Below are positions 1-26,140 of a DNA stretch of 64,000 nt, piece by piece. The stretch is from NCBI RefSeq assembly GCF_030253575.1, contig NC_080568.1, positions 6,609,501 through 6,673,500 of the forward strand. Direction: 5' to 3'. The notes under the pieces are model-generated. The model had not been told where the DNA came from, made no database searches, and saw only the letters and a program-made list of their open reading frames with translations. Position 1 is the stretch's first letter, and each line of letters starts with the position of its first letter. A program made the position numbers and the translations under genes. This DNA is from Rhododendron vialii. Its lineage: Eukaryota > Streptophyta > Magnoliopsida > Ericales > Ericaceae.

Positions 1-282
1 TTTTAGAGTTATCAAACGGTTCGAAGTTTTCATGCTGAAACCGGAGCAAGCTGGACGTGCTGAAACCGTAAAAGGGTTCCCTCGAAATCAATTTGTACAC
101 CATGACTACTTGATTGGTTTCTACTTTCTTCAAGTAACACATGGGAGCCGAACTGACTCTCAGTCATCCAAAGGGCTTCTTGACTTTTTTCATTGACAGC
201 CAGAGCATTTGCTCACAGCCATGCGAGGAATCACCACCGCATATACATCCATGAGTTGGTTCCCTACTTTTTTCTTGAGCCA

Positions 283-1055
283 GACTACGACCACCACCAT
301 GCGCGGTGATCGTCCACCGCACGGCCAAAAATACAGAAAAATATTTATAAATTTTAAAATGATATTTTATGGGGCCCTGTAAACAATCAGCTCCAACAGA
401 TATCGGTAGATATGCTTTTTAAATTTATAGGAGCGAAAACTACGAAACTGAGCAGTTTCGTTCCTACAAATTCAAAAAACATATCTATCGATATTCATTG
501 GAGTTGATTTTTTACAGGGCCCCATTAAATATTATTTTAAAATTTATGAATATTTTTCTGTATTTTTGTAGGGCCCAAAATAGACCCCAAAAGGCGTGCG
601 GTGGACCATACACCACATAGAATGCGCTATGCGGTGTACCTAGACTTTCGGTTTTTTCTTCTTAGCAGGATTACGGTCACCACATGGATTTCGTGGTGAC
701 CGTCTACCGCACGCCTATTGGGGTCCACTCCGGACTCCAAAAAAATACAAAAAATATTCATAAATTTTAAAATAATATTTCATAGGATCTTGTAAAAAAT
801 CTGCTACAACGAATATCGGTAGATACATTTTTTGAATTTGTAGGGACGAAACTGTAAAACTAAACAGTTTCGTTCCTACAAATTCCGAAAAACATACCTA
901 TCGATATCCGTTGGAGCTGATTTTTGGCAGAATCCCATAAGATATTATTTTAAAATTTATGAATATTTTTTTGTATTTTTTTAGGGCTCGAAGTGGGTCC
1001 CAATAGACGCGCGGTGGACGGTCACTGCATTTTCTTGCGGTGTACCTGGACAGTC
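283..1055. mobile_element. Two tandem copies of a palindromic MITE-like unit
   Basis: Each roughly 390-bp unit has a central inverted repeat: CAGCTCCAACAGATATCGGT pairs with the reverse complement of its right arm (360-540 in unit 1, 785-960 in unit 2), around CAGTTTCGTTCCTACAAATT. Units start with a GGTGATCGTCCACCGCACG-type sequence. Copy 2 lacks the whole insert (junction near 17365). Superfamily unclear; no clean target duplication seen. Confidence 0.6.
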
Positions 1056-1249
1056 TTTTGCACGTTTTTGCATCAATGCATTTCACGTGATGAAAAGCTG
1101 TCACAGTACTACATGGTCACAGAAGAAGAATTACATGACGTGTAATGGAAGAATTACATGATGTGTAATGGGGCCCACCCCGTGACGTGTAAGGGATGAA
1201 TTACATGATGTGTAATGGGGCCTACCCCGGGTTCTGATGGTAGATTGAA

Positions 1250-1490
1250 AGGATTCCGGTTTTTTTTTAAAATGAACTTTTATAAAAAGGAAGGTAATTT
1301 TAAATTTTAAATTTATGTATTTATATAAATAATTTTTCTATCAATATGAATCTTATTTGATAGATCTTATTGAGATTTTTTAAACGGTATAAAAAAATTG
1401 AAAAAATATTTTTTATTTTCATTATATTTGAATTTGAAATTACATTCTTTTTGAAAAAAAAAGTATTAAAAGAAAGCGGAACGCCCCCTT
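1250..1490. mobile_element. AT-rich MITE, same family as 54712-54944
   Basis: Contains TTGATAGATCTTATTGAGAT and TAATTTTTCTATCAATATGA, which match the reverse complement of the 54.8-kb element. Ends resemble GGATTCCGG/AGCGGAACG. Borders approximate. Confidence 0.45.
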
Positions 1491-1542
1491 ATAATCTTCC
1501 ATTTTTGTTCGTCATTTCGGGTAATCCACCTAAAAACTCATA

Positions 1543-1776
1543 CTCCGTGCATTCCAAAAAAGATGACAATTTTTGGAATTCATGTCATTTTTTATCGTTT
1601 ATATCTTTTAATCGATAAAGTTTTTCATAAGTTTAAAAATTTTGTATAATAGAACTAATCGAGAACCATTAAACAAGATTCATATTGCATATTTTTTGAG
1701 ATCCACATTGAAAGATATAACGAATTGAAATTGACATAGATTTCAAAAATTGACATCCAATTTGGAACGGAGAGAG
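1543..1776. mobile_element. Stowaway-like (Tc1/mariner) MITE
   Basis: Ends CTCCGTGCATTCC and, inverted, CTCTCTCCGTTCC, continuing as paired arms (GATGACAATTTTT / GATGTCAATTTTT). Flanked by TA on both sides (1541-1542, 1777-1778). Confidence 0.68.
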
Positions 1777-1778
1777 TA

Positions 1779-2206
1779 TTAATGTAGGACAAAAGCAGAG
1801 AATTTTTTTTATATTTTATTTTTATTATTTTAGAATAAGAATTTGACTTGGAGTATTTTTCGTTTAATTTAGAATTATTAACTTTCCGGATTCAATTTTA
1901 TTTTGATTTCTATCTTTATTAAGATTCTTGGTCTAGCTACAAGAATTAGAATGGAAATATCTTTTCTTTAATGCCACTTGTTTTGGCATGATTTAGAATT
2001 TTTTTTTTAGTAGAATTTTTAGGATTAGGGTATTGTAAAAAGGGTTGTAACCTAATCAATTATTAGCTTGTCTATCAATAATATTCAGAGTTTCTCTCTA
2101 TTTTCTTTGTAAGCAAGGTTTTCTTGTGGACTCGAATTTATCAATCGTTTAGATTAATTAGTACGTAACTAATCTCTCTTGTGAATTCCGTTGCGTCACA
2201 TATTGA
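1779..2206 (+). mobile_element. LTR fragment, related to the LTR at 26904-27479
   Basis: Shares GGGTTGTAACCTAAT, ATATTCAGA, TTAGTACG(T/C)AACTA and the CCGTTGCGTCA end with the 27-kb LTR. The beginning (AATGTAGGAC) is poorly conserved. No internal retrotransposon sequence next to it. Confidence 0.5.
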
Positions 2207-2233
2207 CAGGAGATTAATACATGCTATGTTTTA

Positions 2234-2539
2234 GGGAAAATACTACAATACACACCCTTTATTTGGGTGTATATCATATGCATCCGTCAAAATGTTATAA
2301 ATTATAGAGAAAATGTTACGAATCGTATTGCTAAAAAGTTACGAATCGTATAAAGGTTACGACTTACGAGATACTCCAAAATGTTATGATTCATAATGAA
2401 AATGTTACGAATCATACTACTGAAAGGTTATAAATTTTAGAATAAAAGTTATGAAACACACTAAAATATTATGAATGAACCATAAAATAGGTGCATATGG
2501 TACACCCTTCTAAGGGGTGTATATTATAGGCTTTTTCCC
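2234..2539. mobile_element. MITE with internal TGTTACGAATCAT repeats
   Basis: Terminal inverted repeats GGGAAAATACTACAATACAC and (inverted) GGGAAAAAGCCTATAATATA. The interior repeats GTTACGAATC about six times. Copy 2 lacks it. Confidence 0.6.
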
Positions 2540-3005
2540 ATTCTGTAGTATGCGTTTTGCTTTAAAAAAAAAACTGTTGATGAATCTTGCGGTTTGAATC
2601 AAATAACAGGATCCGCGGTGGGCTCCATAATGGGTGCACGTACACTGTCTCCTCCAAGAAAGGAGTATGTGTGCATTGCGCAATGCACAACATGCACGCT
2701 GTGCTAACAACCGATCCTTGATGTGTTTTTGTTGATTCAGTTTACTTTCTTCGCACATGACTCAAGTGGAAATTTAGGTTGATCGCACATCGATACATAT
2801 GTGATCGGAGTATTTTTTTCGTACATTTTATTGTGCAAATCATTCTATCTGTTTTTGTATTGATGAGGAATTTGCTCCAATCAAATATCTGTCAATGTCT
2901 AGCCAACATGAATAATCCACGCGTGGTTTATTCTCAGTGCGCGTATATTATTCTGGGTGAGACGAAGGAAATAAACGATTCAATTAACTAAAACGGATCT
3001 GGGAT

Positions 3006-4505
3006 TAAAATCTATGATTTTAATGTGCCCCAACAGAGAAGAAATGGAGAAAATGGTCAATGAATAATGTCTTATTAGGTGGTTCTCTGAAACTAAGCCT
3101 TGGGATGGTGAGGCGGCGTGCGTTGAAAGGTTTGTGTGGCTATGCTATTATGGAATTCCACTCAATGGTTGGAGTAATACTTCTTTCAAAGCTATTGGTG
3201 AATTATGGGGCTCTTTCATGTGTACTGATGAATCGACACTGAAGATGTCTTCTTATCGCCACTAACACTAACAAGGAAATTGATGAGTGAATTACCGTAG
3301 AAGTTGAAGGAAAGCGGTATATAAAGTCAAGGTGATGGAAGATCCGTGCGACCAACCACATGAGGCGGAGAAACAAATTCCTAGAGCAAGTCTTGATTTT
3401 TCCTTGAATTCAGAAGAAGAATCAAAGGAAGAGGAGGAAAATAAGGAGGATGAAGTGGATACTCCAGCTTCCGTGAGTAAAGCTAATGGGTCCTCTTCGG
3501 AGGCGGAGCTGAACTCATTCCGAGGGAGCGGAACCCATCGCGATTTAGACAATGGTAGGCATGGTGGAGCTGATTCTAGGATTGGTGGGGCGAATACTGA
3601 TGGGGATAATTTATGTGTGGCCGAATCTGAATTTTCGAGTCGTCTCCGAGTAGTGAGGAATTGACCTCTCAACTCGGAGTTTCTCAAGCAAATGAGAGGG
3701 GATTGTTCCTTTTGTTGACTCGGCAATTATTTTTGACTCTCAAAATTCGCCGAAAGCGTCACAAGTGGAGGGATTAAACTTAATAGTCGACTTGAACCAA
3801 AAGGAAGGTAGTTGGGTTGTACCACTCAGTCTTTCGAGGAGTATCGCCAAAAAAGAGATGAGAGGAGATTGTCTTTTGATGCTATCTTGAAGTTGAGAAG
3901 AGGAATGAGGAGATCGGAGAGAAAATTTAAAAAAAAAAAAAAGAAACATCTCGCGGAGATTGAGGCTAAGTTCGATAAAGTGAATGAAAGAAGAAGGGCC
4001 CTTATTTCTCTTTGTTCTTTAAGGAAGCTCGCAAGATGTTAGATATTGGTTCAAAGTTAGGCATTGAAATAAAAGGTGGGAGGAACTATAATTTGAAGAG
4101 ATTTGTTAAAATGCAAGAGGAAGAGTTAAGGGAAAGAATCCATGCTCTTGACGACTATGAGGAAGAATCTATCTCAGGGGACGATGATGATCTTGAGGAT
4201 GGAGCCTCTCTCTCTCTCTCTGGCTTTTTGATGTCGAGTTTTAGGCAGGTTTGGGGTTTTCTCCTGATTAGATTAATTGAGGTAGCGATGTAGTTTTTTG
4301 TGGTGGCAGTAGGAGGTTTTTGCTATTGTGGGGGTTGGCGGGGGGTTTTCCTTTGCCACTTTTGTGGTTCTTTTGGCGTCTAGTTGGCGTCTTGCCTTCT
4401 GTTAAGCCTTGGATGGCTTTTGCTGGTGTGTCATTGGTCTTTTTAATCTTTGTAATCCTTATAAAGATTAATAAACTCTTTTTGCTTAGGAAAAAAAATA
4501 AAAAG
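3006..4505 (+). mobile_element. LINE (non-LTR retrotransposon), ORF1-type, lacks ORF2
   Basis: Flanked by an exact 11-bp target duplication GGATCTGGGAT (2995-3005 and 4506-4516), ends in an A-rich tail at 4490-4505. At 3080-3260 the translation WFSETKPWDG..FVWLCYYGIPLNGW..GELWGSF matches the DUF4283/RRM-like ORF1 protein of plant L1 elements, followed by VEGKRY-like sequence and an acidic segment at 3332-3664. 3840-4210 encodes a Lys/Glu-rich stretch with a coiled-coil look. Several frameshifts and stops. No endonuclease or reverse transcriptase sequence: ORF2 is absent. The copy-2 paralogue at about 22183-22200 shows the unoccupied site. Confidence 0.87.
3332..3664 (+). pseudogene. LINE ORF1 acidic segment
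   Basis: Open frame of 110 codons within the LINE, rich in Ser, Glu and Asp (NSEEESKEEEENKEDEVD). It resembles the linker that follows the nucleic-acid-binding part of plant LINE ORF1. It starts downstream of the frameshifted DUF4283-like block, so it is not a free gene. Confidence 0.6.
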
Positions 4506-5203
4506 GGATCTGGGATGGTCTAAAACTCTTAAACAAATTAACTTACACAAAATTTTGAAACTTGTTTTCTAATTATATTTGCACAACCAACTGCTACTCG
4601 GCTACATAAATTGATAACATTTAAAAAAGAAGAAGGGCTATTCAGCGGCATCATAATTCATTCGATCCGTAGAAATCCCATTTGAGATTGACTGTAATTG
4701 GAGGCAGGATACTTTATGTTGATAACTCTTGTGCCTCTATGTCGAGGAGTTTTCCAGGATTAGCGACAGAGATGGAGGCGTGGAGGTTGGGGGAGGGGGA
4801 TGAGGAAGCGTGGAGGTTGCTCCTCCGAGAATGCGGTGTGCCAACGGCCCATCCTCAATATGTTTTTGTTAATGCAATTCACTCTCTTTGCACATGATTC
4901 AATATGTGATCTGAGTACATTTTCCGTACAATTTAGTTTGCAAAATCATTCTATCTGTTTTTGTATTGAAGACGAATTTGATCCAATCAATTATCTATCA
5001 ATGCTTGGCCAACATTAATCTACATGTGGATGATTCTCGGCCAGACGAGGAAAATGAACAATTCAGACTAACTGAACGAATACGTTGATAGGGCACAACA
5101 CAACCCATTTCCGGCGAAATTTTACCAAAACTCATCTCAATGGAAAACTTATTGAGATTGACTTTTCGTAAACAAAATTAACTTACAGAAGATTTTGAAA
5201 CTT

Positions 5204-5809
5204 TTTTTTTACCAGAAAATAAACTCGATTTATATATAAGAAAACATAGTACACTAAAAGGGGACCCTGTCGGTCCCAAAATATAGAAAAAAACAAAAGA
5301 AAATAAAAACAACAAACCAAAAAAACTAGCATCGAATTACGACGCCGAAGCCAGACCCGTTGAACACACCTGTGAAGAGGGGTTGGAGAGGCCACAAAGA
5401 GAGGCTATGTATGAACATAGAGCAAGCCCTTTTAGATGATTTGTCACACCAACTCGAACTCGTCCCGCCGCAGACTGGAGGCAGAAGTCGTTGCAGACTC
5501 CGTCAACATCGCCGGTACACTGATTCCAAGAAAACAAGTTCTAGAACCCCAAATCTGGCTCCTGAGTCAAAAAATGGAGGGGAAAATAGAAAATCTCAAA
5601 TCCCTAAGGAAAGAGTCTCAACCACCTTACAACCAGGAGTTGAGAGAGTAGAGCATAGGAATGGAGAGGAGAAAGGGGCTCTGCATCAGAGGGGGACTGA
5701 GGGGGAGGAAGAAGGAAGAGACAAAAAGGGGAAGAAAGAAAGAATGGGGGATCCCACTCTCTCTCTCTCTCTAGAACTCTCTCTGCTCTAGAACTCTCTC
5801 GCTTACTTT
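5204..5809 (-). mobile_element. 5'-truncated LINE, minus strand
   Basis: A T run at 5202-5210 is the poly(A) tail of a minus-strand insertion. A 14-bp target duplication AGATTTTGAAACTT flanks it (5190-5203 and 5810-5823). The body is about 600 bp of LINE 3' end, with only short unconserved frames and (CT)n near its truncated 5' end at 5758-5800. The homologous sequence at about 4546-4575 is uninterrupted and shows the empty site. Confidence 0.82.
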
Positions 5810-6161
5810 AGATTTTGAAACTTGTTTTCTAATTATATTTGCACAACCAACTATTCTGTTTACGTAAAATTCATACCATTTTAAAAAAGGCTATTCAACC
5901 GCCTCATAATTCACTTGGTCGAAATTCATTTGAGATTTGACTGCAATTGATAATCAACTTTACTGAGACTGGATTGAAACATCATCTTAACAACGGAAGC
6001 CATACAAGAGTAATAAGATACCCGATATCGATATGCCTAGTGTACAATACGGCCCCTGTGCTTGCCCCAGCTTCCCGGAGTACCCTCACCATGTTCCTTC
6101 ACCACTTGTAAGTTAGACTCCTTGCTTTGGTTGCTTATCTTGTTCTTGTTAAGGGAATCAG

Positions 6162-6455
6162 CAACAGGATAACCTCTGAAAATTAAAAGAAAAGGAGAGA
6201 ATGGGGGAGAAATTGATCACTTCGAGGGGATCGGACCTCCAACAAGACCACTTCGAGGGAATCTAGCCTCCAAAGCCTTTAGTTAATTGAAATAATAATG
6301 AGCCATACGGCATCTACATATTTGTAGACTCAAACTGAAAAGGAAATGCAATCAAAGGAAATAAATTAATGACCTAAATCCTAGACTTCCTTACTTAGAG
6401 CCAAAATCAAGCAACTAAATAACACAAATATGGAATTAAAAATAAAATCCTAACA
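6162..6455 (-). mobile_element. Small solo LTR (or TRIM-like)
   Basis: On the minus strand the 294-bp insert begins TGTTAGGATTTTATTTT. A perfect 5-bp duplication ATCAG flanks it (6157-6161 and 6456-6460). The paralogous site at about 25195-25205 reads straight through without it. The 3' end is TTG rather than the usual CA, or the border is shifted by one or two bases. Confidence 0.68.
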
Positions 6456-6950
6456 ATCAGGTTTTGAGCTAGGGTTTTCCCCTAGGTGATGGTCTGTAGA
6501 CTCTATACAAACTAATGTTATGACCAGAACAATTTCATGGAAAAGTGTTCAAAATACAGTGCGACGGGATTAAGTTCATCTTTGTTGGAGTGCCGGGTCC
6601 TTTATTTGTGAATGCAAGCTTTTCCTAGCCGGCCACTCTAGTTTCCTTTTGTCATCTTCACATGAAGCTGGCTGAAAAATCCTTTTTGTCATGGAATTTT
6701 CCAAATAAAAACGTGACCTTACACCAGCGAATCTGCAGTATGTGTTTTTTTTCTACCATGTTGGTTTCGAATTTTTGTGGGCAACTTTAGTCCTCTATAA
6801 TATATCTCTATTTGTGTATAATATATAGTTTGGTAGCCCACTCTCAGTATGTCATACCGGAGTTAAAGAAGTTTCAAGAACAACCTAAGAACAAGAGATA
6901 AAGAGAGAATGAGAGAGAGAAAGAAATCTCCATTTTCATTTCTTTTCGAT

Positions 6951-9343
6951 CCAACAAATTACACCATTCCCGACTAACGTTTTAGTCGCCAAATGTCCAC
7001 TTTTTAGTCGCCAAAGGGTTTTCCCGACTAAATAATTTAGTCGGCAAATTAGTCGGAGAATGACAGTTGGCAAATGTAATTGCCGACTAAATAAGGTTTA
7101 GTCGGCTAATGTATGGTTTTAGCGACTAAAAAACTTGGTCGGGGTTTCTATTTTAGTCGGCAAAAATTAACTTTTTGCCGACTAAATATTTAGTCGGCAA
7201 TTATAATTAACTTTTGCCGACTAAATATTAAGTCGGCAATAATAATTATTGTGGCATCAAATGTCATTACGAAAAAATCAGGGGACCAAAGTGAAAAAAT
7301 TTCATTTCCATTTTTGAGATATATTTGCCTTTCCCACCCAATTCATTTGATGGGAATATGGCACTTCCAGGTCTCGAACCTGAGACCTCCGCCTTCATCA
7401 CACGCGCACCTGACCACTCGACCACTGCTGTACTTGGTTTACTTTTCAGTAATAAAAATATTTATACTATTTAGTTTCGTCTGTTTTACCTTTATTTTTT
7501 TTCTTTGATAAGCTTTTAAATTTACTTTTTTTTATCTTTTCTTTAAATTTACTTTCTTAAAAAAAAAAAAAAAAACTCATTACTGCAGTTCATAATCTTT
7601 TTTAGAACTTACACACACTAAAAGAGAATTATTTCAATCACACATTCATAAACAGAACCTATTTCTTCAATGCACAAATTCGAACATTATCACCCAAACC
7701 CCACTTTGAGGTCTTTTTTTCCCCGGTTAAAATCATCTTATCTTTTGTTTTTATTAAATATGGTTTAAACGATAATTCTTACCGAGATTATAGTTGATTG
7801 TTTTTTATTAGACAATTGATTGCATGAAAATACTATTTATTCTAATGAGTTCGTGTCTCAATAAAGGGTTTTTTTTTTCTTTTTCTATAAAGGGGTTTTC
7901 TAAACCTAATCGAGCCGCAAATTTATGAGAATGAATTATTCACCGAGCGTAGCAAAATGAACAGTCTCGATCGTAATATTTTTCTCGTGGTCGTGTGGCT
8001 TTTGTAACAATGAGTGCAACATAAGACTTAGTTGACTATCATCAAGTAAATAAAAAAAAGCATAGATTGTAAACATAACTGCCGAGTAATTTTTTGTAAT
8101 ACTCGATCTGAACCGTTAGGATTTCACGTCTTTACCAATTATAGCATCGTCACCAAAATCAAAGACCATTCGATATCAGCGACCACATAATCAAAAACAT
8201 ATTTAATGCATTCGGAGACGTTTAAGTGTTATAGTGCACTAACCGAGCCCCGCCTGAGGCCTTATTTGGCAATCCAAATCATCTATCTTTTACGTAATAC
8301 AAATTAGATCATTTGTACCAAGAATGAAGTTAATCATTCATACCAAGAATGAAGTTAACTCTATTTGAATAGATATTTGATCAGACAATAATATTCTTTT
8401 TAATTAACAATTTGTGTGCCGATAAACAGCTTTCCTTAACCCAATCGAGCAAAAAATTTACAGAAATCTTATGATTAAGAAGGAAAAAAAATTGAACGGT
8501 TTCGATCGGGAAGGTTTCATCGTGTGATCGATGTCGTCGAAACAAATATTGATTTTCTTGAAATTTTGTTTCAAAGAGAGGAAAAATTGATATTCCCCAA
8601 CCAAATGTAATTTTAGTCAGCAAATATTTCTATTCCCTACTAAATTATTTAAATTATTTAGTTGGAAAATGTTTTTCATTTATTAATTTTTAAAATTTGC
8701 AAAAAAATAGATATTTGCCGACTAAATGTAATTTTAGTCGGCAAATATTAATATTCCCTACTAAATTATTTAGTCGGGAAATGTTTTTTCCTTCATTAAT
8801 TTTTTAAATTTAGGAAAAAATAGATATTCGCCGACTAAATGTATTTTATTCGGTAAATATTAATATTCCCTACTAAATGGTTTAGTCGGCAAATGTTTTT
8901 CGTTCTTTAATTTTTTAAATTTAGGAAAAAAATAGACATTCGCCAACTAAATGTATTTTAGTCGGCCAATATTAATATTCCCTACTAAATTATTTAGTCG
9001 GCAAATTTTTTTCGTTATTTAATTTTTTAAATTTTAGAAAAAAATTGATATTCGCCGACTAAATATAATGTTAGTCGGCAAATATTAATATTCCCTACTA
9101 AATGGTTTAGTCGGGAAATCGTTTTCATTAATTGGTTTTTAAATTCGGGGAGAAAATTGATATTCTCCGACTAAATTTATTTACTAGTCGGCAAACATTA
9201 TTATTTCCCGACTAAAACTAATTTTAGTCGGCAAACATAATTATTTCCCGACTAAATAATTTTAGTCGGCAATTGTTCAATAATTGGCGACTAAATTTAG
9301 TTTAGTCGGGAATTTTAGTCGGCAATTGTGTAATTTCTTGTAG
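6951..9343. mobile_element. Non-autonomous CACTA (En/Spm) element
   Basis: The right terminus is the reverse complement of CACTACAAGAAATTACAC at 9326-9343, the classic CACTA end. The left end is degraded: only CAACAAATTACACC remains near 6954. Both flanks carry dozens of copies of a subterminal motif TTTAGTCGGCAA/TTGCCGACTAAA, in both orientations, at 6970-7240 and 8590-9330, as expected for transposase binding sites. No transposase frame is present in 2.4 kb. The central 7450-8580 is AT-rich without genes. Confidence 0.87.
7360..7437 (-). repeat. tRNA-derived sequence (SINE head or tRNA pseudogene)
   Basis: Minus strand shows an A-box-like TGGTCGAGTGG (about 7413-7423) and a B box GGTTCGAGACC (7370-7380), spaced as in a tRNA promoter. 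The acceptor stem does not pair well, so it is not a working tRNA. It lies inside the CACTA element. Confidence 0.6.
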
Positions 9344-9497
9344 TGCGTTCTGATACAGAACTCAGCTATTGATTGATATACTGCGCACTACTCTTACCAG
9401 CATTTGTTACAAAACCAAACCCCAGTTAACTACTTCTAACTACAGTTAAACAAACTAGCCACACAATTAACGTAATTACAGTTTGGTCCACAACTAA

Positions 9498-11104
9498 CTA
9501 ATGAGTTCTCTTTACACCCCCCTTCAAACTCATGGGAGTATCCATGACCATGAGTTTGGCCTTCAAAGAAAGAAACCTGTCCACAGATAGAGATTTTGTA
9601 AAAAGATCTGCAATTTGGGCCAAGGTACCAATATGTTGAACCAAAATCTGTTTGCTGATAACTTTTTCTCGAATAAAGTGATAGTCCACCTCGACATGTT
9701 TGGTCCTTGCATGAAAAACAGGATTAGACGCCAAGGCAATGGCTGACTGGTTGTCACACCAGATGAAATGAGGCAAAGTAGGGGAAACATGAACATTAAG
9801 AAGTAACTGCTAAACCCAAGACACATCAGCTGCAGTCTGAGCTAAGGCTTTATACTCAGCTTCTGTGGAAGACCTGGCAACAGTGTGTTGTTTCTTTGCA
9901 CACCATGAGATCAAGTTAGAACCCAAAAATAGACAAAAACCAGTGGTAGACCTCCTATCTACATGATCTCCAGCCCAGTCAGCATCACTGAATCCTGTTA
10001 ACGTGAGGGAACTAGGAACAAAATGTAGTCCTTGGTGTATGCAGCCCTTGACATATCTCAGAATTCTTTTAACTGCAATGTAATGGCTTTGTCTAGGAGC
10101 ATGCATATGCTGGCATGCAAGATTGACAACAAAAGAAATTTCAGATTTAGTAAGGGTAAGATACTGCAAAGAGCCAACCACAGTCCTATACCAGTGTGGA
10201 TTCTCAAAATATGGATCAGGATCCAAGATAGCTGGTTTAGTAGAGGAGGGAGAAAGACTAGGTTTGCATTCATTCATACCAGACTTCACCAGCAGGTCTG
10301 TAGCATATTTACTCTGAGATAGAATCAAACTATTACCATGATACTCAACTTCTAAGCCCAAGAAATAACTAAGTGTCCCCAGATCTTTCATTACAAACCG
10401 GCTGCCAAGATTTCTGATTAATTCAGTGATATAAGACACATTGCTACCAGTGATGAGAATGTCATCAACATAGACCAGAACCAAAGTCACACCTTGATCA
10501 GTCTTGAGAGAAAACAAAGAAGGATCTGCTTTGCTGTTCACAAACCCTTGTTGAAGAAGAAAGCTAGAAAATAAAGAAAACCAAGCTCTTGGGGCCTGTC
10601 TTAAGCCATACAAAGCTTTATGCAATTTACAAACATGATTGGGATACGTGACACTCTGATAACCAAGTGGCTGTTTCATATACACTTCTTCTTCCACTAC
10701 CCCATGAAGAAAAGCATTAGTAACATCAAGCTGTCTGATAGTCCAGCCATGGTGCACTGCTAAACTGAGAACAATTCGAATGGTAGGTTGTTTGATAACC
10801 GGACTGAAAGTTTCTGTGAAGTCTAATCCCTCGGCTTGTTGATTCCCGTTTGCAACCAACCTGGCCTTGTATCTGGCCACACTACCATCAGAGTGTCGTT
10901 TGATTTTATAGATCCACTGGCAGCCTATCAAATTGACAGTTGGTGGAGGAGGCACAAGAGACCAAGTTCCCTGATGGACTAATGCTTGATACTCCTCTGC
11001 CATTGCAGCTTGCCATACAGAGTGTTTGATGGCTTCAGAAAAATGTTTTGGTTCAGTGTGTGGAGGTGCAGAGGTACTAGCAACTGCAGTGAGACTCACA
11101 ATGG
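9498..11104 (-). pseudogene. Ty1/copia pol relic: reverse transcriptase and RNase H
   Basis: The minus strand encodes the C-terminal half of copia pol. It opens inside the segment before RT (AAMAEEYQALVHQGTW, QWIYKIKRHSDGS), continues through RT with QLDVTNAFLHG, LYGLRQAPRAW and the catalytic YVDD at about codons 210-213 of this frame, then RNase H (SDADWAGD, SSTEAEY, HVEVDYHFIRE, KSLSVDRFLSLKAKL). One in-frame TAG at 9810-9812 interrupts it just after the ADVSWV motif; the frame is otherwise open to 9498. Gag, protease and integrase are missing: at about 11104 the pol frame runs straight into unrelated duplicated DNA. Confidence 0.92.
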
Positions 11105-11330
11105 TTTTGGCAACTTTAGTCCTCTATAATATATCTCTATTTGTGTATAATATATAGTTTGGTAGCCCACTCTCAGTAAGTCATACCGGAGTGACCAAAA
11201 GCCCAAGTTCAGTACGTGCCAGATAAGTGGGTTTGGCCCATGTCATGGAGTGAGTTAGTTTACTTCTTAGTTTGCTGATCAATAGCTGTGCAGAACTGCA
11301 GATGATCAATGACGGCTCCTCTACAGATGC

Positions 11331-11999
11331 CATATTGCCATGCATAGCAGCCTTGCGAGTGAATGCCTGGTTCTGAAAGAGAAAGAGCTGCTCAAGCGAT
11401 TTATTGTCAATAGGGAAGAAATCTTAGGCCGTGAGCAAACCGAATCTGTGATATCCTCTTGTTATCCAATCAGGGTTGTCTTAGATATCCATTTGTAAAG
11501 TTGAACAAGCACGGTATATATGCTCGAGTCGAGAGTGGTATTGGATGCAGTTACATGTAATTGGGAGGAGAACTTCATTTTTTGTAGCTAATTGATTGGA
11601 TGGCTGATGTCGAATCTCTCTCTGCTTGGCTGAACCGAAGAAGCTGCTCAGAACAAGTGCAAGCAGGAGGAATTAAAACTCTCGCTTGATTAGCAATGGA
11701 ACTCGTATCTCTGTGTTTAGTGCCTCTTGGATTATTGCATGGGAAGAAATTATGTTGGTTCGATGAGAGACATTTTCAGACTCGATTCTGATCGTTTCGC
11801 GTTATTCAGCTTTCATGTTACAGTGCTATACAGAAATCAGAAACGGATATGAACCCTCGAAGGCTTTCCATTTCTCGGATCTTAAAATATACATATATAG
11901 ACCCCGTTCCACTAAGGTTTTTTTTTTTTTTTTAAATACTTATTTTTTGTTTTACGAGACCAGTCATTTTCTCACAATACACCACATTTAGATTGGTTA
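11331..11999. other. Intergenic, no supported gene
   Basis: Holds a 40-codon frame (about 11342-11475; KEKELLKRFIVNREEILGRE) ending in TAA, possibly an exon remnant of the duplicated locus, and a T run at 11920. Nothing else recognised. Confidence 0.4.
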
Positions 12000-12700: not shown

Positions 12701-14836
12701 CTAGTTCCTACACTTCAAACGTTCCACAAATTCATCAATGCACTTATCAGAACTCCCTCCTTCACTAATTGCTTCCTTGGCCAAAGCCTTCAATTTACTT
12801 GCATTCCTCCTGATCTCAAGACTTCTCTCCCCTTTCCCCATGACTTGCTTCAAACAAGAAATTAGCTCTTCTCCCCTCAAAATTCCCTTCTCATCCTCCT
12901 TCGCTCTAACACCAACACCCCATATCTCCTCTATGAACTTAGCATCAGTCATTTGGTCAGCCCATTTAGGCACTCCGATCATCGGCACGCCGAGGCTTAG
13001 CCCTTCCAGCGTCGAGTTCCACCCGCAGTGAGTTACGAAGCAACCGATCGCCGGGTGCACTAGCATTTCCAGTTGGTTGCACCATGTTACAATCAGGCCC
13101 TTTTCTTTTGTCGAATCTGCAAACTCGGGAGGCAATTTTCCAATCTCGGACTCCCTCACCACCCAAATGAAGTGCGTATTGCTGCACTTCAATCCCAGTG
13201 CTATTTCCTCCATCTGCTCTGCTGCCAGTGAAACCATGCTTCCGAAAGAGACGTACGCCACGGACTCCCGTGGCTTTGTTTCGAGCCATTGGACGGTTTT
13301 GCTGCCGAGTGGATTCCACAGGCTTGCTCCGTATCCCTTGTCTCCTACAATCCGGCCGTCCAAAAATGCCGATGGCACCATTGGACCTATCAGTTTTCCC
13401 GGCCAGAGGTCCGATACGCCTTTTGCCGCCTTTCAATGAGTCATAAAACACATAAATCAGCTCTTTGCACTGAAATATTCATCACACAAAATATTGTCAT
13501 GTATGCATATTATGAACGGATTGGCCCAATGCTATGTTGTACCGACGCGGGCAAGCGACACGATATGGACAGGATACTGACACTTCAAAGTGCAATATTC
13601 CCAGAATCATTGAGGAAATGAGACTTAGGGACATGTTTCGGGAAACATATAATATGAGTATTATTATCGTATAAATACGAAATGAAAAAACAAGTCTCCA
13701 ACTAAAATCAATAGACCATATGTCCGGTATTCGCAAAAAAAAGACCACAAGTGTCCATAGAGTGTGCTGAGAACGTTCATAGAGCAGCCAAGAATGTCAG
13801 GAGTCTCCAGATAAAATAAAAAAAATAAAAATCGCGAAAAATTGAGGACACTTCTAATTTGAGTGCCAGACAAGTACGTGTCCGGAGATTAATGGTGTCT
13901 GCCAAGCAAGTGACAGACATTATTAACTCCTTGAGAAGATATTATGAAAATTAAAGATGTACCTGGCCTTCCAAATTTTCAAAGGTGTTCCCGAATACCC
14001 AGTCAGCCTTTTCCAAGTTAGAGTACTGTCTCAAATTCATGGCTAAGTATGCAGGGTGACTTTCTGGTGCCAAGACAAAGCTTGGCAAGTCAGGCAAGTT
14101 CAACGGCGGCAGGCCAGGCAGCAGCAGGGGCGTCTCGTCCGGCTTCACGGGCAGACTGATCAGGCCTCGGTGTATGCGACTGAATATCGCGCACACCGTG
14201 GCTGAGTTGGTGAAAAAGGATGCCCCGTATATGCCTTTTTTCTTCGCAACATCCAGAGCCCATGGCAGAAACGAATCATATACAACGCAGTTGACCGGAA
14301 AAGAAGAATCTTGGTACCTATCCACAGTGGCAGATTCAGAAATTCAACATTCAAGGATTAATAAAAAACATCAAAATATTCGGTCTTTTCTTTTCTTTGT
14401 TGGGCTTTTTTCAAATTTAGTCTATATGTTATTTGTTTAACATTTTTGGTTCTTCTAGTCAAACCAGAAAAAATATATATATTTGAAGATGAGCTGGAAA
14501 AAAGTTCACCAAAGACAAAAAGACAATATCAACTTTCCACATTCCCTACTTGTGGATGAGTTGAGACAAAGTTCTCGAGCCGTTGTCTCTGAAGGCCTTG
14601 AGGTACACATCCTCATTTTGCGCTTGAGAAAATCCTCCCTCATCGAACCCGTCGGAGATCGGCTCAACGGCGACGTTCGGGGCGCAAATGTACTTGACAG
14701 TGTAATGGGTCGTGGCTACTGTGGCTTTGACACCTTTGGAAGCTAAGCGTTTGGCAAATTGGAGGAGAGGGTTTATGTGGCCTTGGCTTGGATAAGGGAG
14801 GAACACAACATGGGCTCCTTGGTTTTTCTCTTCCAT
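12701..14836 (-). CDS. UDP-glycosyltransferase, UGT74-like, three exons
   Basis: Transfers a sugar, probably glucose from UDP-glucose, to a small acceptor in the cytosol; the acceptor cannot be told from sequence. Exons on the minus strand are 14836-14550, 14317-13963 and 13429-12701, with GT-AG introns of 232 and 533 bp. The joined frame is 1371 bp, 456 aa, normal for the family. The N-terminal GHINP motif places the catalytic His at residue 20, and the YDSF motif places the partner Asp at 110. The 44-residue PSPG sugar-donor box spans about residues 330-373, from WCNQ through HCGWNS to WADQ; the final Gln fits a UDP-glucose preference. The IGP-VPS and LEGQ contexts resemble UGT74 members (salicylate, IBA, thiohydroximate and terpenoid glucosylation). 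Intact splice sites and frame suggest a working gene. It lies alone between two copies of a segmental duplication. Confidence 0.93.
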
Positions 14837-15100: not shown

Positions 15101-15585
15101 TAGGCCTGTCAATGGACCGGATTCATTCCGGATTCGATAAGACCCAATCCGATCCGGATCCGATAAGACTCAAATCCGATAGTGGTAATCCGGATCCGAA
15201 TCCGAAAAATCCGGATTCGATCCGAAAATCCGAATCCTATCCGGAAACTTTTTTTACTTCAAAAATTTTAGCCAAAAAATATATATATTTTTCAAAAAAA
15301 AAAATTTATTTTTTCAAAAAAAAAATATTTTCCGAAAAAAAATTTAAAAAATTAAAAATAAAAATACAACTTCTTAAACATTTTTTTTTTCAAAAAAAAA
15401 ATTAAAAAATTTTTAAAAATAAAGTTCGTATTCGGATTAATAACAGATTTAATCCGATCCAATCCGGATCCGTATTGAATTACCGGATTCGGATTATTGG
15501 ATTATCGGATCGACTTTATCGGATCCGGATCCGAATCGGATTTTCAGATCGGATCTGGATTAGATCCGGTCCATTGACAGGCCTA
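15101..15585. mobile_element. hAT-type MITE with perfect 8-bp target duplication
   Basis: Inverted ends TAGGCCTGTCAATGGACCGG match exactly, and ATTCACAA occurs directly on each side (15093-15100, 15586-15593). The interior is rich in ATCCGGATCCG/AATCCGGATTCG motifs in both orientations and has an A/T-rich centre. Low divergence of the ends suggests recent movement. Confidence 0.9.
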
Positions 15586-15699
15586 ATTCACAATAAATTT
15601 CTCTCGCGACCAGGCCCCAAAGAGTTGCCAGGTTTTGAACTAAAATGGGTGACGTCGTGTAACATTCACATAAGTTGGGCACCACAGCCCACAGGAGAC

Positions 15700-16190: not shown

Positions 16191-16888
16191 ACTTGAGATT
16201 TATGAGTTTGTTCCATTTTAGGTGTTAGTAATTCCTATAAGGTCATTCCACACAAGATTTGTCTCGACTTCGAATAGGCTCCTATTAGAAGACGGTGTGA
16301 TTAATCGATTTGCACACATAAATTGCCCGAACAACTCTTCTTTTTTTTGGAAATGATTTTGACACTTCATTTTTATCTGTTAGCACTCCTTTTTTGTCTT
16401 CATTCACTTGAAAGTACCAAATTGCCCTTCATATGGAACAAGTAACTCAAGAGGTAAGGGTAATTTAGTAATTTCAACTTGAATAAAGACAAAAAGGAAG
16501 TGCCAATGGAGAAAAGGAGAGTGTGAAAATTATTCTCCTTTTTTTTTTATCTGAACCCTAACACCTCAATGAATGTGTACACCTTGAACTGAAAATCCTA
16601 AAACCACTGACGGTGGGTGCACTAACTAGCACGTCGGGCCCACTCTGGGTCCCGCACAATAAATCCGAGCCATTCATTAACTTTAAAAAAAAATGGCCTT
16701 GTGAAAAATCAGTTCAATTGGATAAATGTAAGTGTTTGATCTAATCTTTCTATTTTTCATTCAAATTTCAAAACTTATTCAATTGAGCTAAATTTTTTCA
16801 CAAGGCTAGTCAATTTGTTTTAAAGTTATTGAACAGCTCAAATTTTCAATACTGAATCCGGAGTGGGCCCGACATGTCGGTAGGTGGC
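16191..16888. other. Intergenic, no supported feature
   Basis: Low-complexity and AT-rich sequence. A weak inverted repeat around 16635-16860 (GTGGGCCCGACATG / CGTCGGGCCCACT) may be an old MITE. No gene found. Confidence 0.4.
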
Positions 16889-17019
16889 CATGAAAGGGTT
16901 CCCTCGAAACCAATTTGTACACCATGACCACTTGATTGGTTCTACTTTTTCTTCAAGTTAACACATGGGGACCGAACTGACTCATCAAAGGGCCTCTCGA
17001 CCTTTTTCGCCGTCGTTTA

Positions 17020-17250
17020 GTCGTGGGTTTGAAAAAAAATTTCCAAATTCAAATCCACTCATTACCTTTATTTTCAATTATTTTTTTCATTTTTTTCTCC
17101 ATTTATTACACCTATATCTAATCATTAATCTCATTTCTCTCTCTATCTCTATCTCTCTCCACTCATTACCCATATCCTAATTTTTACCTTATTTTCTCTT
17201 CTCACTTATTATCCAAAAACAAAATTCAAATTTTTTTTCAAACCCACGAC
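17020..17250. mobile_element. MITE with GTCGTGGGTTTG inverted ends
   Basis: GTCGTGGGTTTGAAAAAAAA at 17020-17039 is mirrored by TTTTTTTTCAAACCCACGAC at 17231-17250. It interrupts a block that is continuous in copy 1 (near 185-200). Superfamily not assigned. Confidence 0.7.
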
Positions 17251-17399
17251 CGAAGAAGGCCTTCATTGTCATTTTCGACAACCAGAAAGCATTTGCCCTG
17301 AGCCATACGAGGAATTAGCACCGCATAAACATTCATGAGTTGGTTTACTACTTTTTCTTTTCTTTTTTTTTTTTGCACATTTTTACATCAAGAGTCCTT

Positions 17400-17530
17400 C
17401 TACCACTATATCCATTTACATACACACTCACACTCACAATAAAAGTGGAGCCCGCACACACTATACATCCAATGTGTATGGGCCTCACCCTTATTGTGAA
17501 TGTGAGTGTGTGAATGGATGTGGTGTTAGA
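17400..17530. mobile_element. Short palindromic MITE
   Basis: CACACTCACACTCACAATAA pairs with TTATTGTGAATGTGAGTGTG across a short loop near 17470. Absent from copy 1. Confidence 0.55.
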
Positions 17531-19795: not shown

Positions 19796-19984
19796 CAGCC
19801 GTGAAGCCGTGAAATTAAAGCTGTCACACCACGAACCCGAGGAGGGGAAGTCCATTCTAAGCCCTACGTACGACATGGTCACAGGAGAACATGATGTGTA
19901 ATGGGAGAAAGGGAAGCAGGTACACATTGTGGAGCCCACCCGGATCCCGATATTAGATTTCCCGCCGGGGCCCCAACGCACATG

Positions 19985-20430: not shown

Positions 20431-20497
20431 GGGCCTACTCCACGCACATGACTCTTGATAACTCCAACATGGGTCCCAATATTAGATTGAATCTTTC

Positions 20498-21062
20498 ATT
20501 TTGGGCCGTAAACGAGCCGAGTTTTACCGTGCTCAACTTTGTTTATTGAGTTTTTAACGAATCTGAGCTCGAGCTCGAGCTCAATGAAAACTTAACAAGT
20601 CGAACTCGAGCCGAGCAAACCTTGATTTGACTCGAGCTCGTACTTGTTCACAAGTCTTAACGGGCCAACGAAAAACATATATATATCCTGACATAGGCTT
20701 AATACAATCAAAATAATCAAAAATATTTTGATTGTGAAAGTAGATATTTTTCATTTTTCTATTCTACAAGAAGATTATCTCAATAATAACATGTAATATA
20801 TTTTTGTAAGGATTCTGCATCAGGGTATCAAAATGTTAAAGCTAATTATAGTAATTAACATGAAAAGTCTACTAAGTCTTGGCTTGCGAGCCAACTCGAG
20901 TCGAGCCTCTGCTGGCTTGTGTTCGGCTAGCTTGATAATGAAACGAGTTTAGAATTTGAGCTTGGGCTTGTTTATTTATGTCTCGAGTTGAGCTTGAACG
21001 AGTTTTTACCAAGCCGAGTCTCGAGTGGCTCGCGAGCGGCTCTGTTCGTTTGCAGCCTTTTC
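20498..21062. mobile_element. Degenerate hAT-like MITE rich in GAGCTCGAGC
   Basis: Ends GCCGTAAACGAGCCGAG and (inverted) GCTGCAAACGAACAGAGCC. Possible 8-bp duplication with two mismatches. The interior has runs of GCTCGAGCTCGAG. Confidence 0.5.
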
Positions 21063-21110
21063 GGATAGTTGACGTAAAAACTCATATAGATCGGAGATTA
21101 ATACATGCTA

Positions 21111-21340
21111 CTCCCTCCGTCCCTATTTTAATTGTCCACTACTGTTTTTTGTGCATTTTCAATCGACTTATATTTCTCGATGTATATTATGTTTTATATA
21201 TTTGAAATCATTATCTTATAGAAAAAATTGAGATCTATTAAACAATATTTATATTGCATATTTTTAGCAATATATGTTTAGATATAAGTTGTTGAAAATG
21301 CACGCAAAACCGTAATGGACAATTAAATAGGAATGGAGAG
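21111..21340. mobile_element. Stowaway MITE
   Basis: Left end CTCCCTCCGTCCCTATTTTA, right end inverted CTCTCCATTCCTATTTAA, TA target at 21109-21110. Copy 1 (near 2224) is uninterrupted at this point. Confidence 0.8.
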
Positions 21341-21562
21341 TGTTTTTAGTACACGTTTTGCTTTAAAAAAAAACCAGCTGTAGGTGAGTCTTGCGGCTTG
21401 AATCAAATAACGGGAACCGAGATGGGTTCCATAATAGGTGCACGTACAGAAAGGGGTATGTGTTGTGCGCAATGCACAACATGTGCGTTGTGATTGCGCA
21501 CAACATGCGCGTTGTGCTTATGGCCGATCCTCGATATGTTTTTGTTGATACAATTTACTTTT

Positions 21563-21967
21563 TTTAGTGGCGAAGTCAAGATTTTGACTCCAGAGCTAGC
21601 TTTGCAGACATATTTTTTCTCGGAACATATACTTATTATATCATAAAAGTTTAATTTTCAAATACATTACATTTGTATATTGAAATGATTCTAGCCTAAT
21701 GTAGTTAAAATATACCAATCATTTTATTTTTTTCATTAGGATACTTCGCCTGTCACGTGCTTATTTTTTCATTTATGAAAGAAATTGAGAAATACGAATG
21801 TAAAATATCCGGTTTTTTATCAAATCAAATCAAAATTACTAAGATTATAAATAGCTATACAGGAATAATTATCAATACTATTCAAAATCAGGTATATACA
21901 AAATCCTAAAAATTTTAAAACTCAGAAGCTCGGGAGACTGGGGCCGTGGTCCCCCGAGCCCCAACGC
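21563..21967. mobile_element. Unclassified insertion starting AGTGGCGAAGTCAAGATTTT
   Basis: About 400 bp absent from copy 1, where TTTACTTTCTT joins CGCACATGACTC directly (about 2742-2756). It ends in a G/C-rich stretch (GTGGTCCCCCGAGCCCC). No clear terminal repeats. Confidence 0.5.
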
Positions 21968-22252
21968 ACATGACTCAAGTGGAAATTTAGGTTGATCGAA
22001 CATCGATACATAAGTCATCGGAGTACATTTTTCTTACATTTTATTGTGCAAATCATTCTATCTGCTTTTGTATTGAAGACGAATTTTGCTCCAATCAAAT
22101 ATCTATCAATGTCTACCCAACATGGATCTACGTGTGAATTATTCTCGGCGAGACCAAGGAAACGAACTATTCAATTAACTAAACGGATCTGAGATGGGCT
22201 GACCTCGATAGGAGCTCAACATTCACACTCTTGATCGATAGGCCACAAGCAC

Positions 22253-22707
22253 TGTTAGAACTGTGGTTCATATGTTAAGTATGAAGAGATACTAAGGAGT
22301 TTTAGAAAGAAGGCCAAATGCTGGAGCGTAACGGAACGTGGAGCAAAGTGCAACGAGTGGAGCGGAGCGACGACATCTACCCCATCGCCGATGATCTAGT
22401 GAAAGTAGATTGGGCCTTCGGTCCAAGCGTTCCGTAATTGGGGGTGCGGGGGGCTTCACCCCCCGCGGTATGGTACGGTATCGTACAAGGGTATTTTCGT
22501 TATACAGGCTAAATCCGGTTAGGGTTAGAATAGAGTAGTTATAAATACTCTATGTTGTAATCCTTAATTCGTACTGTGATAATAAAGAACAACAGCTGTT
22601 TTCGCTCCTGTGGACGTACCCGATTTTGGAGAGCCACGTATATCTCTGTGTTGATTCTTTACTGTTTATACTCGTAAATCGTGTGCGTGTATGTGACTAT
22701 CCTAACA
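22253..22707 (+). mobile_element. Solo LTR (copia-like)
   Basis: 455 bp from TGTTAGAACTG to ATCCTAACA, with a 5-bp target duplication carrying one mismatch (AGCAC/AACAC). It contains a TATAAATACTC core promoter and a TTGTAATCC region as in an R/U5. No internal sequence. The homologous site at about 5095-5110 is unoccupied. Confidence 0.82.
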
Positions 22708-23211
22708 AACACAATACAACCCCTTCTCGCTGAAATATTACGAAAACTCTTTAACAAATTAACTTACACAAAATTTTGGGAAAAAAAAAAGGGCTATTCA
22801 GTCGCCTCATAATTAATTCGCTCGATCGGTAGAAATCCATTCGAGATGGACTGCAATTGGAGGCAGGATACTCTTTGCGAAAAACCCCAGTTCTTCCGTG
22901 CCGAGGGGTTTTCCAGGGTTAGCGATAGAGATGGAGGCTTGGGGGTTGGGGGAGGGGGATGAGGGGGATTAGGCTAGATAATTTATGGATAGGTCAAACG
23001 CCATCCAAAAATAATACCCCTTCGCCAGGATAGAAACCAAGGGGGGTGAGTTCATCTCCCTCGTCATTCTGCTTCCAAAAACAAAGATAAGAGTGGGTCC
23101 CACCGCCTCATCACCATTCATAATTCATCCCCCTCCTTAAGGCTCTTATCGTCAAAAATTAAGGACAATGATGACTTCAAATCTTTTAGTTGAACGATTT
23201 TTTTTTTTAAC

Positions 23212-25025
23212 CTTAGGGCCTACTTGGATGCAGGTAAAAAATCGGAAGTAAAAAATATGAAGGAAAGATAAGATAGTAAGTGGTATTAATTTTGATGGGT
23301 TGATCCACATCGATTTGATGTTTATGAAGGGAGAATAAAATAGTATGATGTTTGAATAAGGTATTAAATAGGGGAATAAAATTTGACTTTGTTTGGATGG
23401 TTTATAAAATGAGGGATAAGAAGGGGTGAATGATGGGAAAAGCTGTCAAATGACTATTTTGCCCATATACAGTGTTAAATTTGATTATATATTAAAATAA
23501 GTATATAAATTCAAAAATCAATATATTTAATCAATTTTAGACAATTGGAAGTATAACAAAATAAATTAATTAAAAAATGTCTATTCTAAAAAAATTATAT
23601 TAAAAAACGTTTTTTTAATTAATGGTTCGTATTTATCATTTTTTTTTGATAAAATCAATTCATTTAATCTATAAAATGTTTAACCCTTATAAATTCATTT
23701 AATCTAGAAAATGTTCATTGAGGGAGATGCAATTTTAATTGTTCCGAAAAATGGAAACATTTTTTTTTGGAAAGTGATTTTTTAAGGAATTTGATTTTGA
23801 CGATTGTGTTAGAATGAATTTTCATTATGTTGTTAAAGATCCTAATGTTAATCTAATTAGTTTTTGGAGATAAAATGTTAGTTTCAACCTCTTTAAACAG
23901 TTTATATATTAGTAAAAAATATATAGTTAAAGAACTAAGTGTTCCAAATTTCAATCCGTTTGAATCGGTGGAAAGATTATAGTTTTCTGATCATTTTATC
24001 TTAAATGGTCATAATTAAATTTTGACTCTAGGGCTCTCGTTGATTAGCCCTAAGAAAGTTGTAGAACCAAATATCTCTTAAGGCTAACTAACGAGAGCCC
24101 TAGAGCCAAAAATTAATTATGACCCTTTAGGATAAAATGATTAAAGAAATAGGATCTTCATACCGGTTCGAAAGGATTGAAAATTAGAGCACTTAATTTT
24201 TTAACCATATTTTTTAATATATAAACTGCCTAAAAAGGTTGAAAAATTAAGTGTTCCAAATTTCAATCCGTTTCAACCGGTGGAAAGATTTTAGTTTTTT
24301 AATCATTTTATCCTAAATTGTCATAATTAAATTTTCATTATATGGCTCTCGTTGATTAGCCCTAAGAGATATTTAATTCTACGACTTTCTTAGAGCTAAT
24401 CAACGAGAGCCCTAGAGTCAAAATTTAACTATGACCATTTTGGATAAAATGATCAGAAAATTAAAATCTTTCCACCGGTTCAAAACGGATTGAAAATTAG
24501 AACACTGATTTTTTTATACCATTTATATATATCAAAAAATATAGTTAAAAAATTAAGTGTTTCAATTTTCAATCCGTTTAAACCGGTGCGAAGATCTTAT
24601 TTTTGTTTTTTGTAATCACTTTATCTTAAATGGTCATAATGGATTTTGGCTCTAAGGCCTATCAATGTGCATCCTAAAAGAGCCCTAAAACTAAATAAGG
24701 AGTCTTAAGATATGTTTGAATAGAAAGTCTGATTTTTGGTAGAATAGAGAGTAGAAGTTGGTTGAATGGTGGATGGGAAAAAGGGATAACGAAGGGTATT
24801 TTTGTTCACAAAACACCCCTCCACAAGGGGATTATTTTTGGAGACCTCAAGAGGAGCCCAAAACTAAGACCCTACAATCCCTACAACTGGGGAAAACAAA
24901 AAGGGGCTGAAAAATAATAGGGGAACAAATTGGATTGCCAAACGGGAAAAAACAGGTGGACCCCTCCCCATATACCCCTTCTAATTTTTCTCCTCCTCTT
25001 TTCCCTTCATCCAAGCAAGACCTTA
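23212..25025. mobile_element. Possible TIR element, about 1.8 kb, gene-free
   Basis: TTAGGGCCTACTTGGATGCA at about 23212 and the inverted TAAGGTCTTGCTTGGATGAA at about 25022 could be its ends. The interior is AT-rich and contains the palindromic array listed separately. No coding frame. Not present in copy 1. Confidence 0.4.
23930..24660. repeat. Serial palindromes of about 270 bp
   Basis: Two complete palindromes (about 23932-24204 and 24244-24515) and half of a third (24550-24660). Each arm carries AAGTGTTCCAAATTTCAATC, a GATCATTTTATC-TAAA block and GCTCTCGTTGATTAGCCCTA, mirrored around a short centre. They are direct repeats of one another. Confidence 0.8.
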
Positions 25026-25760
25026 GTGGTAATTTATCAACGCAAAACATACAAGAGTAATAAGACGCCCGATATGCCTAGTGTACTATATGGCCCCTGT
25101 GCCTGCCTTGGCTTCCCGGAGTACCCTCACCAAGCATGTTCCTTCACCACTAGTTAAGACTCATTGCTTTGGTTGCTTATCTTGTTCTTGTTATGGGAAT
25201 CATATTTTGAGCTAGGTGATGGTCAATATATACTAATGTTATGACCTGAACAATTTCATTGCAAAAGTGTTCAAAATACAGTGCGACGGGGTCCCGGGGA
25301 TTAAGTTCATCTCGTCGGAGTGTCAACTGTCGGGTCCTTTATTTGTGAATGCAAGCTTTCAAGCATTCCTAGCCACTCTAGTTTCCTTTTGTTATCTTCA
25401 CATGAAAAGGCTAGCGAATAAATTTCCGAATTACCCACACACAAAAAAAACAGAGCTAGCGAATCTGTATGTGTTTTTTTTCTGCCATGTTGGTTTCGAA
25501 TTTTTGTGGGCAACCTTAGCCCTCTATAATATCTCTCTCTCTCTATCTGGAGTGTGTAATAGTTTGGTAGCCCACTATCAGTAAGTCATAATATCTGAAT
25601 GACCAAAAGCCCAAGTTCAGTGCCAGATAAGTGGATTTGGCCCATTTCATGGAATTTTTAGTTTACTTCTAAGTTTGCTGATCAATAGCTGTGCAGATGA
25701 TCAATGAAGGCTCCTCTACAAATGCCATGGATAGCAGCCTTGCCAGTGATTAATGCCAAG

Positions 25761-26130: not shown

Positions 26131-26140
26131 TCACAGCATC

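Follow-up and report, generated by a model that had tools for sequence, protein, structure and literature searches.

The stretch of DNA analyzed here, the window, comprises 64,000 nucleotides of Rhododendron vialii (contig C12, NC_080568.1; C12:6609501-6673500). The repeated sequence at its left end is explained, with a probability of about 0.93, by triplication of a unit of about 15 kb, the three copies of which (U1, U2 and U3) stand head-to-tail and carry one UGT gene of 456 aa each. For the comparison of the units, 50 kb to the left were added to the window, giving 114 kb in all; positions are window coordinates, negative ones lying left of the window. The units are as follows:

about -19550 to -4264: unit U1, UGT on the minus strand, left of the window
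about -4263 to 11361: unit U2, UGT on the minus strand, with the spacer (1..11361) in the window and the UGT (-1193 to -3467) to its left
about 11362 to 25745: unit U3, UGT on the minus strand, complete, comprising the UGT, its spacer and the DCC1-like 3′ fragment; limits good to within some bases

A triplicated unit on contig C12

An earlier note on the window had described blocks recurring in the same order and orientation in a left and a right copy, had read them as a diverged tandem segmental duplication and had asked for a self-comparison. Run with sensitive settings (1-12600 versus 14801-31000, word 7, E<0.01), that comparison yielded 20 matches, of which 18 were plus and 2 minus. On a single collinear diagonal (1-11362 versus 16818-25749) lay ten of these, in the same orientation and with aligned blocks 72-97% identical, not just as scattered matches of transposon families. 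The blocks on the diagonal, all plus, were:

1-191 / 16818-17008
195-272 / 17277-17356
1586-1696 / 21154-21265
2546-2751 / 21347-21564
2752-3005 / 21965-22195
4522-4557 / 22743-22778
4625-4805 / 22781-22964
5987-6160 / 25034-25202
6502-6856 / 25223-25590
11109-11362 / 25509-25749

Three regions on the plus strand are referred to as shared or duplicated blocks:

16818..17356, plus: upstream of the U3 UGT; shared blocks with homology to 1-272
2546..3005, plus: shared block, homologous to 21347-21564 and 21965-22195
4833..5151, plus: further copy of 2546-3005 within U2, a local duplication; one copy each was seen in U1 and U3

Among the other matches, four (three in 4833-5133 and one at 5883-5949) corresponded to local duplication within the left copy (U2), and the remaining six were short, off-diagonal or minus. 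A short repeat occurs at 1290-1439 (U2), at 18967-19026 (U3) and, inverted, at 54758-54908, and mimics one duplication block; the match 1328-1390/18967-19030 was discounted as evidence of duplication because this repeat is also present at 54758-54908. In the sensitive search each copy gave one match to the 31-64 kb part of the window, in both cases to the 54.8-kb repeat.

With stricter settings (word 11, E<1e-5), 1-11400 versus 16800-25760 gave 14 high-scoring segment pairs (HSPs), 13 plus and 1 minus, while none was obtained with 100 dinucleotide shuffles of 16800-25760 or with five other window segments used as control. The blocks 25031-25749 (in five pieces) and 2752-3005 (in four) were searched against the own genome (532.6 Mb, 13 contigs), with a search that skips very common words. 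Every piece occurred at this locus only, so these blocks do not belong to a dispersed transposon family, a source of the diagonal that was thereby discarded for both blocks searched. The duplication is real and, as far as searched, specific to this locus.

The same note had placed the UGT between the copies as a gene not itself duplicated, which is true inside the window only. When the last exon of the U3 UGT was used as a genome query, two near copies came to light a short distance beyond the left edge of the window; for the two query parts, identity was 95% and 91% with U2 and 93% and 90% with U1. The corresponding genes lie at C12:6606033-6608307 (U2) and C12:6591137-6593970 (U1). The window is devoid of the U2 gene because its start codon is at -1193, about 1.2 kb beyond the left edge. 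A tblastn search of the 114 kb with the U3 protein as query gave no fourth UGT and returned U1, U2 and U3 only.

Pairwise comparison of the units gave chains of collinear matches that continue through gene and spacer. The U2-U3 chain contained 18 of 30 plus HSPs (5376 aligned columns, 5326 of 6601 bits), with 3 minus HSPs (172 bits); the U1-U3 chain, 20 of 23 (4353 aligned columns), with 1 minus HSP; and the U1-U2 chain, 14 of 19 (3640 aligned columns), with 2 minus HSPs. Against the triplication, the U1 spacer is poorly alignable. One of the 18 U2-U3 chain matches, a short one, is the repeat also found at 54.8 kb, which could be held in favor of another explanation, with one low-copy transposon inserted twice next to an unrelated UGT and the similar stretches as its nested copies; so could the presence of transposons in the region and the repetition of spacer parts inside U2. 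Nevertheless, two shared blocks were found nowhere else in 532.6 Mb, and the homology runs through the UGT, its introns and a neighbor-gene fragment in three units, which makes such a double insertion extremely improbable.

The junctions are those of a tandem segmental duplication: the copies are adjacent, head-to-tail, and share a fusion. In the alignment, the same GCGAGTGAATGCCTGGTTCTG fusion was present at both internal junctions, and the left and right parent sequences were found one at each end of the array. At the junctions, the right-end sequence is joined to a stretch that, where U1 begins, is part of the last exon of a gene. The exons of this neighbor, pieced together by eye, matched PF04134 (E 1.1e-26), which identifies it as DCC1-like, and its last exon contains the left breakpoint of the unit. 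The parent copy ends at -19467, and its last ~28 codons recur at -4265..-4179, the U1/U2 junction (89.7% identity), and again at the U2/U3 junction:

11358..11444, plus: U2/U3 head-to-tail junction, with a copy of the last ~28 DCC1-like codons (65.5% identical protein)
25031..25749, plus: right end of the unit, found genome-wide at this locus only; right breakpoint near 25737-25749

The shared fusion points to a single illegitimate event of tandem duplication, with unequal crossing-over afterwards. The earlier question about the gene content of the ancestral unit thus finds an answer: since both internal junctions carry the same fusion into the DCC1-like last exon, the unit contained the UGT itself together with the truncated 3′ end of the DCC1-like neighbor. 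A lost unrelated gene was also considered. There were 14 open reading frames (ORFs) of at least 120 aa in the window, 10 of which were scanned with Pfam, 6 of these inside 1-27045; among the latter, Pfam matched the UGT last exon and a Copia piece only. No such gene was found among the scanned ORFs, shorter or degraded coding remnants not being searched.

The UGT genes, their mosaic exons and the third intron

After removal of introns, the coding sequences (CDS) of U1, U2 and U3 were each 1371 nt long, coding for 456 aa with no internal stops. Putative splice sites were assigned from GT-AG borders and paralog alignment. The exons of the U3 gene are:

14550..14836, minus: UGT74-type gene U3, exon 1 (287 nt)
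13963..14317, minus: exon 2 (355 nt)
12701..13429, minus: exon 3 (729 nt), uninterrupted; split in two (3a and 3b) in U1 and U2

All three proteins contain the 44-aa plant secondary product glycosyltransferase (PSPG) box, as well as His20 and Asp110, which we take to be the catalytic His and Asp of UGTs. The U3 protein, the one for which a Pfam result is available, matched UDPGT (PF00201). Three of its best six PDB sequences were UGT 74F2, the best three being named just 'Glycosyltransferase'. The genes can be considered UGT74-type, with a provisional subfamily letter, and judging by family the proteins presumably transfer glucose to small acceptors, hormones or phenolics for example. The dS (synonymous divergence) and dN/dS values of the whole CDS were 0.239 and 0.24 for U1-U2, 0.238 and 0.22 for U1-U3, and 0.211 and 0.15 for U2-U3; dN/dS being 0.15-0.24, all three genes look constrained.

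Concerning introns common to the array, one position is shared by the three genes and by the C1, C2b and C4 paralogs of this genome. The first intron (14318-14549 in U3, with homologs in U1 and U2; phase 2) was absent from all eight first-exon paralog matches (the C2c first exon lay outside the sequence compared), and for that reason it was probably gained on the stem lineage of the array.

The relationships among the copies were estimated in different ways. In a protein tree rooted on six distant UGTs of the same genome (one outgroup row, L038, is an over-long ORF of 949 aa), U2 and U3 grouped with an ultrafast bootstrap (UFboot) of 99, and the array was sister to the C1/C2b/C4 group (93). 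The noncoding site patterns also favored this pairing, U2=U3 agreements versus those of the other two pairings amounting to 125 versus 64 and 60 in the promoter, 24 versus 13 and 15 in intron 1, 80 versus 10 and 20 in intron 2, and 96 versus 31 and 25 in the 3′ flank. Against it, the pooled noncoding Kimura two-parameter distances (K2P; best HSPs, with different blocks for each pair) were 0.148 for U2-U3, 0.137 for U1-U2 and 0.149 for U1-U3; since they do not place U2 and U3 closest, the branching order appears near star-like.

Along the CDS, the sites at which two copies agree against the third switch partners, forming a mosaic. In CDS 854-945 there were 15 U1=U3 sites, 1 U1=U2 site and no U2=U3 site, while in exon 3b there were 17 U1=U2, 10 U2=U3 and 4 U1=U3 sites. 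A site-order permutation gave p 0.00033 for the U1=U3 run at CDS 854-933 (about 0.002 when corrected for six walks). In addition, polarization with C1, C2b and C4a as outgroups, leaving CDS 854-945 out of the contrast, gave 7 shared-derived U1=U2 sites versus 1 U2=U3 in exon 3b, compared to 6 versus 30 in the rest of the CDS (Fisher p 0.0003). The dS of U1-U2 was 0.116 in exon 3b versus 0.42 in exon 3a. These mosaic patterns fit ectopic gene conversion between the copies.

Several observations weigh against conversion and would be accounted for if the mosaic resulted from chance and unequal rates among three nearly equally related copies. The overall dS is nearly star-like (0.239, 0.238, 0.211). 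The other five walks gave p 0.018, 0.034, 0.044 (the exon 3b run), 0.065 and 0.147, so that five of six lacked significance once corrected. Many of the odd sites are single-copy changes: the 17 U1=U2 sites of exon 3b comprise 7 shared-derived sites, 6 changes in U3 alone and 4 ambiguous ones, and the 15 U1=U3 sites of 854-945 include 7 that look like U2-only changes, besides 5 shared-derived and 3 ambiguous. Moreover, exon dS (0.21-0.24) was not below noncoding divergence, either pooled (K2P 0.14-0.15) or from MAFFT alignments of intron 1 and the U2-U3 3′ flank (K2P 0.15-0.25). The exons as a whole were therefore not homogenized, the argument that they are more conserved than neutral flanks was dropped as proof of conversion, and the case for conversion is that of the mosaic patterns. 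On balance, an origin without conversion seems improbable, given the p value of the U1=U3 run and the polarized contrast, even if the segment limits of the latter were picked after seeing the data.

A further difference among the genes is an extra GT-AG insert in the last exon, of 327 bp in U1 and 397 bp in U2, located between codons 324 and 325 (CDS 972/973), five codons before the PSPG box. In U3 the insert is missing exactly at the GT-AG boundaries, as expected of a precise intron loss:

13099..13101, minus: third-intron site in U3 (AAAAG/GGCC), contiguous, no base gained or lost

The reading favored here, by a modest preference, is that the third intron was present in the ancestor of the array and was precisely lost in U3. 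In plants, introns are lost more often than they are gained. In the C4 UGT74-type pair (C4:14984933-14996074, L044-L045), an intron is found 1 nt away, in phase 1 versus phase 0. This offset may reflect sliding or parallel insertion; between the third intron of the array and the C4 introns, only short weak matches were seen.

The opposite reading, somewhat less probable, is intron gain, with or without transfer by conversion, U3 keeping the ancestral intron-free state. The intron could have arisen in U1 (or U2) and then been copied with exon 3b, or it could have arisen once in an ancestor of U1 and U2 only. The third intron is missing, the site being contiguous, in paralog copies C1, C2a, C2b, C2c and C6, which are five of the seven covering the site and include some broken genes. 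The U1=U2 tract starts near the intron (first site at CDS 981, intron at 972/973), the part of the intron that can be aligned has a divergence between U1 and U2 close to the exon 3b dS of 0.116, and the unit branching order is near star-like in the pooled noncoding distances. A gain would however need a transfer too, because U2+U3 is favored both by the protein tree and by the noncoding site patterns (promoter, introns 1 and 2, 3′ flank). Furthermore, the neighboring C4 intron makes an old intron here possible, and the alignable portion of the third intron, with 21 of 162 columns mismatched and 3 gaps, has roughly the divergence of other noncoding sequence between U1 and U2 (0.137). As pooled noncoding distances weaken the U2+U3 grouping, gain was judged slightly more probable, and ancestral presence with loss slightly less so, than at first. 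The more specific proposal, that a new spliceosomal intron appeared in one UGT copy and was copied to its neighbor by conversion with the PSPG-coding exon, the tract starting at the intron, is rather unlikely.

Two other ideas about the third intron were discarded. The unalignable 5′ half might be taken as a sign of great age (MAFFT K2P 0.39 for the whole intron), but part of it is a repeat insertion in U2, positions 21-139 of the U2 intron matching a dispersed repeat. Neither does the intron look like a simple transposon: no terminal inverted repeats were seen by eye, and the shared part (235-397) matched U1 and U2 only.

Transposon insertions and other features of the window

Another early claim was that almost every transposon is private to one copy, the insertions providing a relative clock. 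It holds for the two insertions checked, each found in one copy only, and those two can be placed in time:

15101..15585, no strand: miniature inverted-repeat transposable element (MITE) private to U3, 265 bp upstream of the UGT ATG; 8-bp target-site duplication, 15/15 terminal inverted repeat, empty site in U2
6864..11108, no strand: 4245-bp insertion private to U2; one Copia end (long terminal repeat (LTR) and reverse-transcriptase end) with a nested DNA transposon
6780..6863, plus: 84-bp direct repeat on either side of 6864-11108, left copy, 83/84 identical
11109..11192, plus: right copy of the same repeat, 83/84 identical

The MITE, which we take to be of the hAT type from its 8-bp target duplication and terminal repeats, gave at least 117 matches in the genome (40 of 619 candidates being scored). 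It postdates the U2-U3 split, since U2 has the empty site and the MITE carries the 8-bp duplication.

In the U2 insertion, the RVT_2 ORF of the Copia piece is at 9810-11099 on the minus strand, and a full-length relative on C8 has 263-bp LTRs that are 99.6% alike. A DNA transposon of about 2.4 kb (about 6952-9345), with TTTAGTCGGCAA-type inverted subterminal repeats, is nested in the Copia LTR. Its copies on C13, C4, C11 and C6 are 96-99% alike, which suggests recent activity. From the likeness of these LTRs and of the nested-transposon copies, the 6864-11108 stretch is considered young. Target duplications of LTR elements are usually 5 bp long; as the 84-bp repeats far exceed this, normal integration seems a less likely origin than the capture of a 3′-terminal Copia fragment during repair of a staggered break.

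Outside the array, a second same-orientation duplication of ~2.3 kb and 84% identity (55378-57669 and 61285-63598) flanks, with one copy on each side, a UQ_con (ubiquitin-conjugating) gene at 58647-59276. A Prolamin_like gene (PF05617) is present as well, and its region recurs in diverged form at two more places (48065-48457, 50990-51523, 60242-60532). Scans of the window for tRNAs and against Rfam (gathering scores) returned no hit.

History of the array and comparison with known systems

The following history may be proposed. The first tandem copy would have arisen by one illegitimate end-joining of the microhomology type, with at most a few bases of homology, and the third by unequal crossing-over between copies. 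The spacers would then have been eroded by transposons and deletions, while purifying selection would have kept the three UGT frames open (dN/dS 0.15-0.24) and short gene-conversion tracts would have been exchanged among the copies. The least certain step, held only slightly above even chances, is the precise loss of the third intron of U3 by cDNA-templated or AGG-microhomology deletion. Precise intron loss proceeds by cDNA recombination or by microhomology deletion, in which the splice sites supply an AGG repeat. The case of U3 resembles these in the exact removal at the splice sites, in affecting the 3′-most intron and in the AGG repeat; it differs in being a presence/absence among tandem copies, the direction of which is inferred.

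Like other tandem clusters of plant UGTs (GT1, group L / UGT74), the array consists of adjoining intact copies in one orientation, produced by tandem duplication. Here, in contrast, a whole ~15-kb segment was duplicated, the founding junction can be mapped in the DCC1-like gene, and the copies differ in intron number. In Populus (PMC9498546), similar UGTs are reported in clusters of 2 to 15 members, often from a single group, as well as one UGT74 with four introns, so extra introns are not unheard of in the family. In peach (PMC5360731), 6 of the 18 group L genes have no intron, 12 have one and none has more, whereas the array genes have two or three. Flax UGTs are the subject of another report (PMC3412749). 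In the literature searched, judged by titles, nothing was found on this particular array.

Arrays of this kind are ordinary; the intron difference and the history of conversion are of modest interest. It illustrates that a window edge can hide a gene array, and the content of the duplicated unit is settled. The founding junction in the neighbor gene is a diagnostic marker with which to date the array in related species. Three intact paralogs with one precise intron difference and adjoining conversion tracts make a compact test of two alternatives, that an intron difference prevents exchange between the copies or that introns are themselves carried along by conversion.

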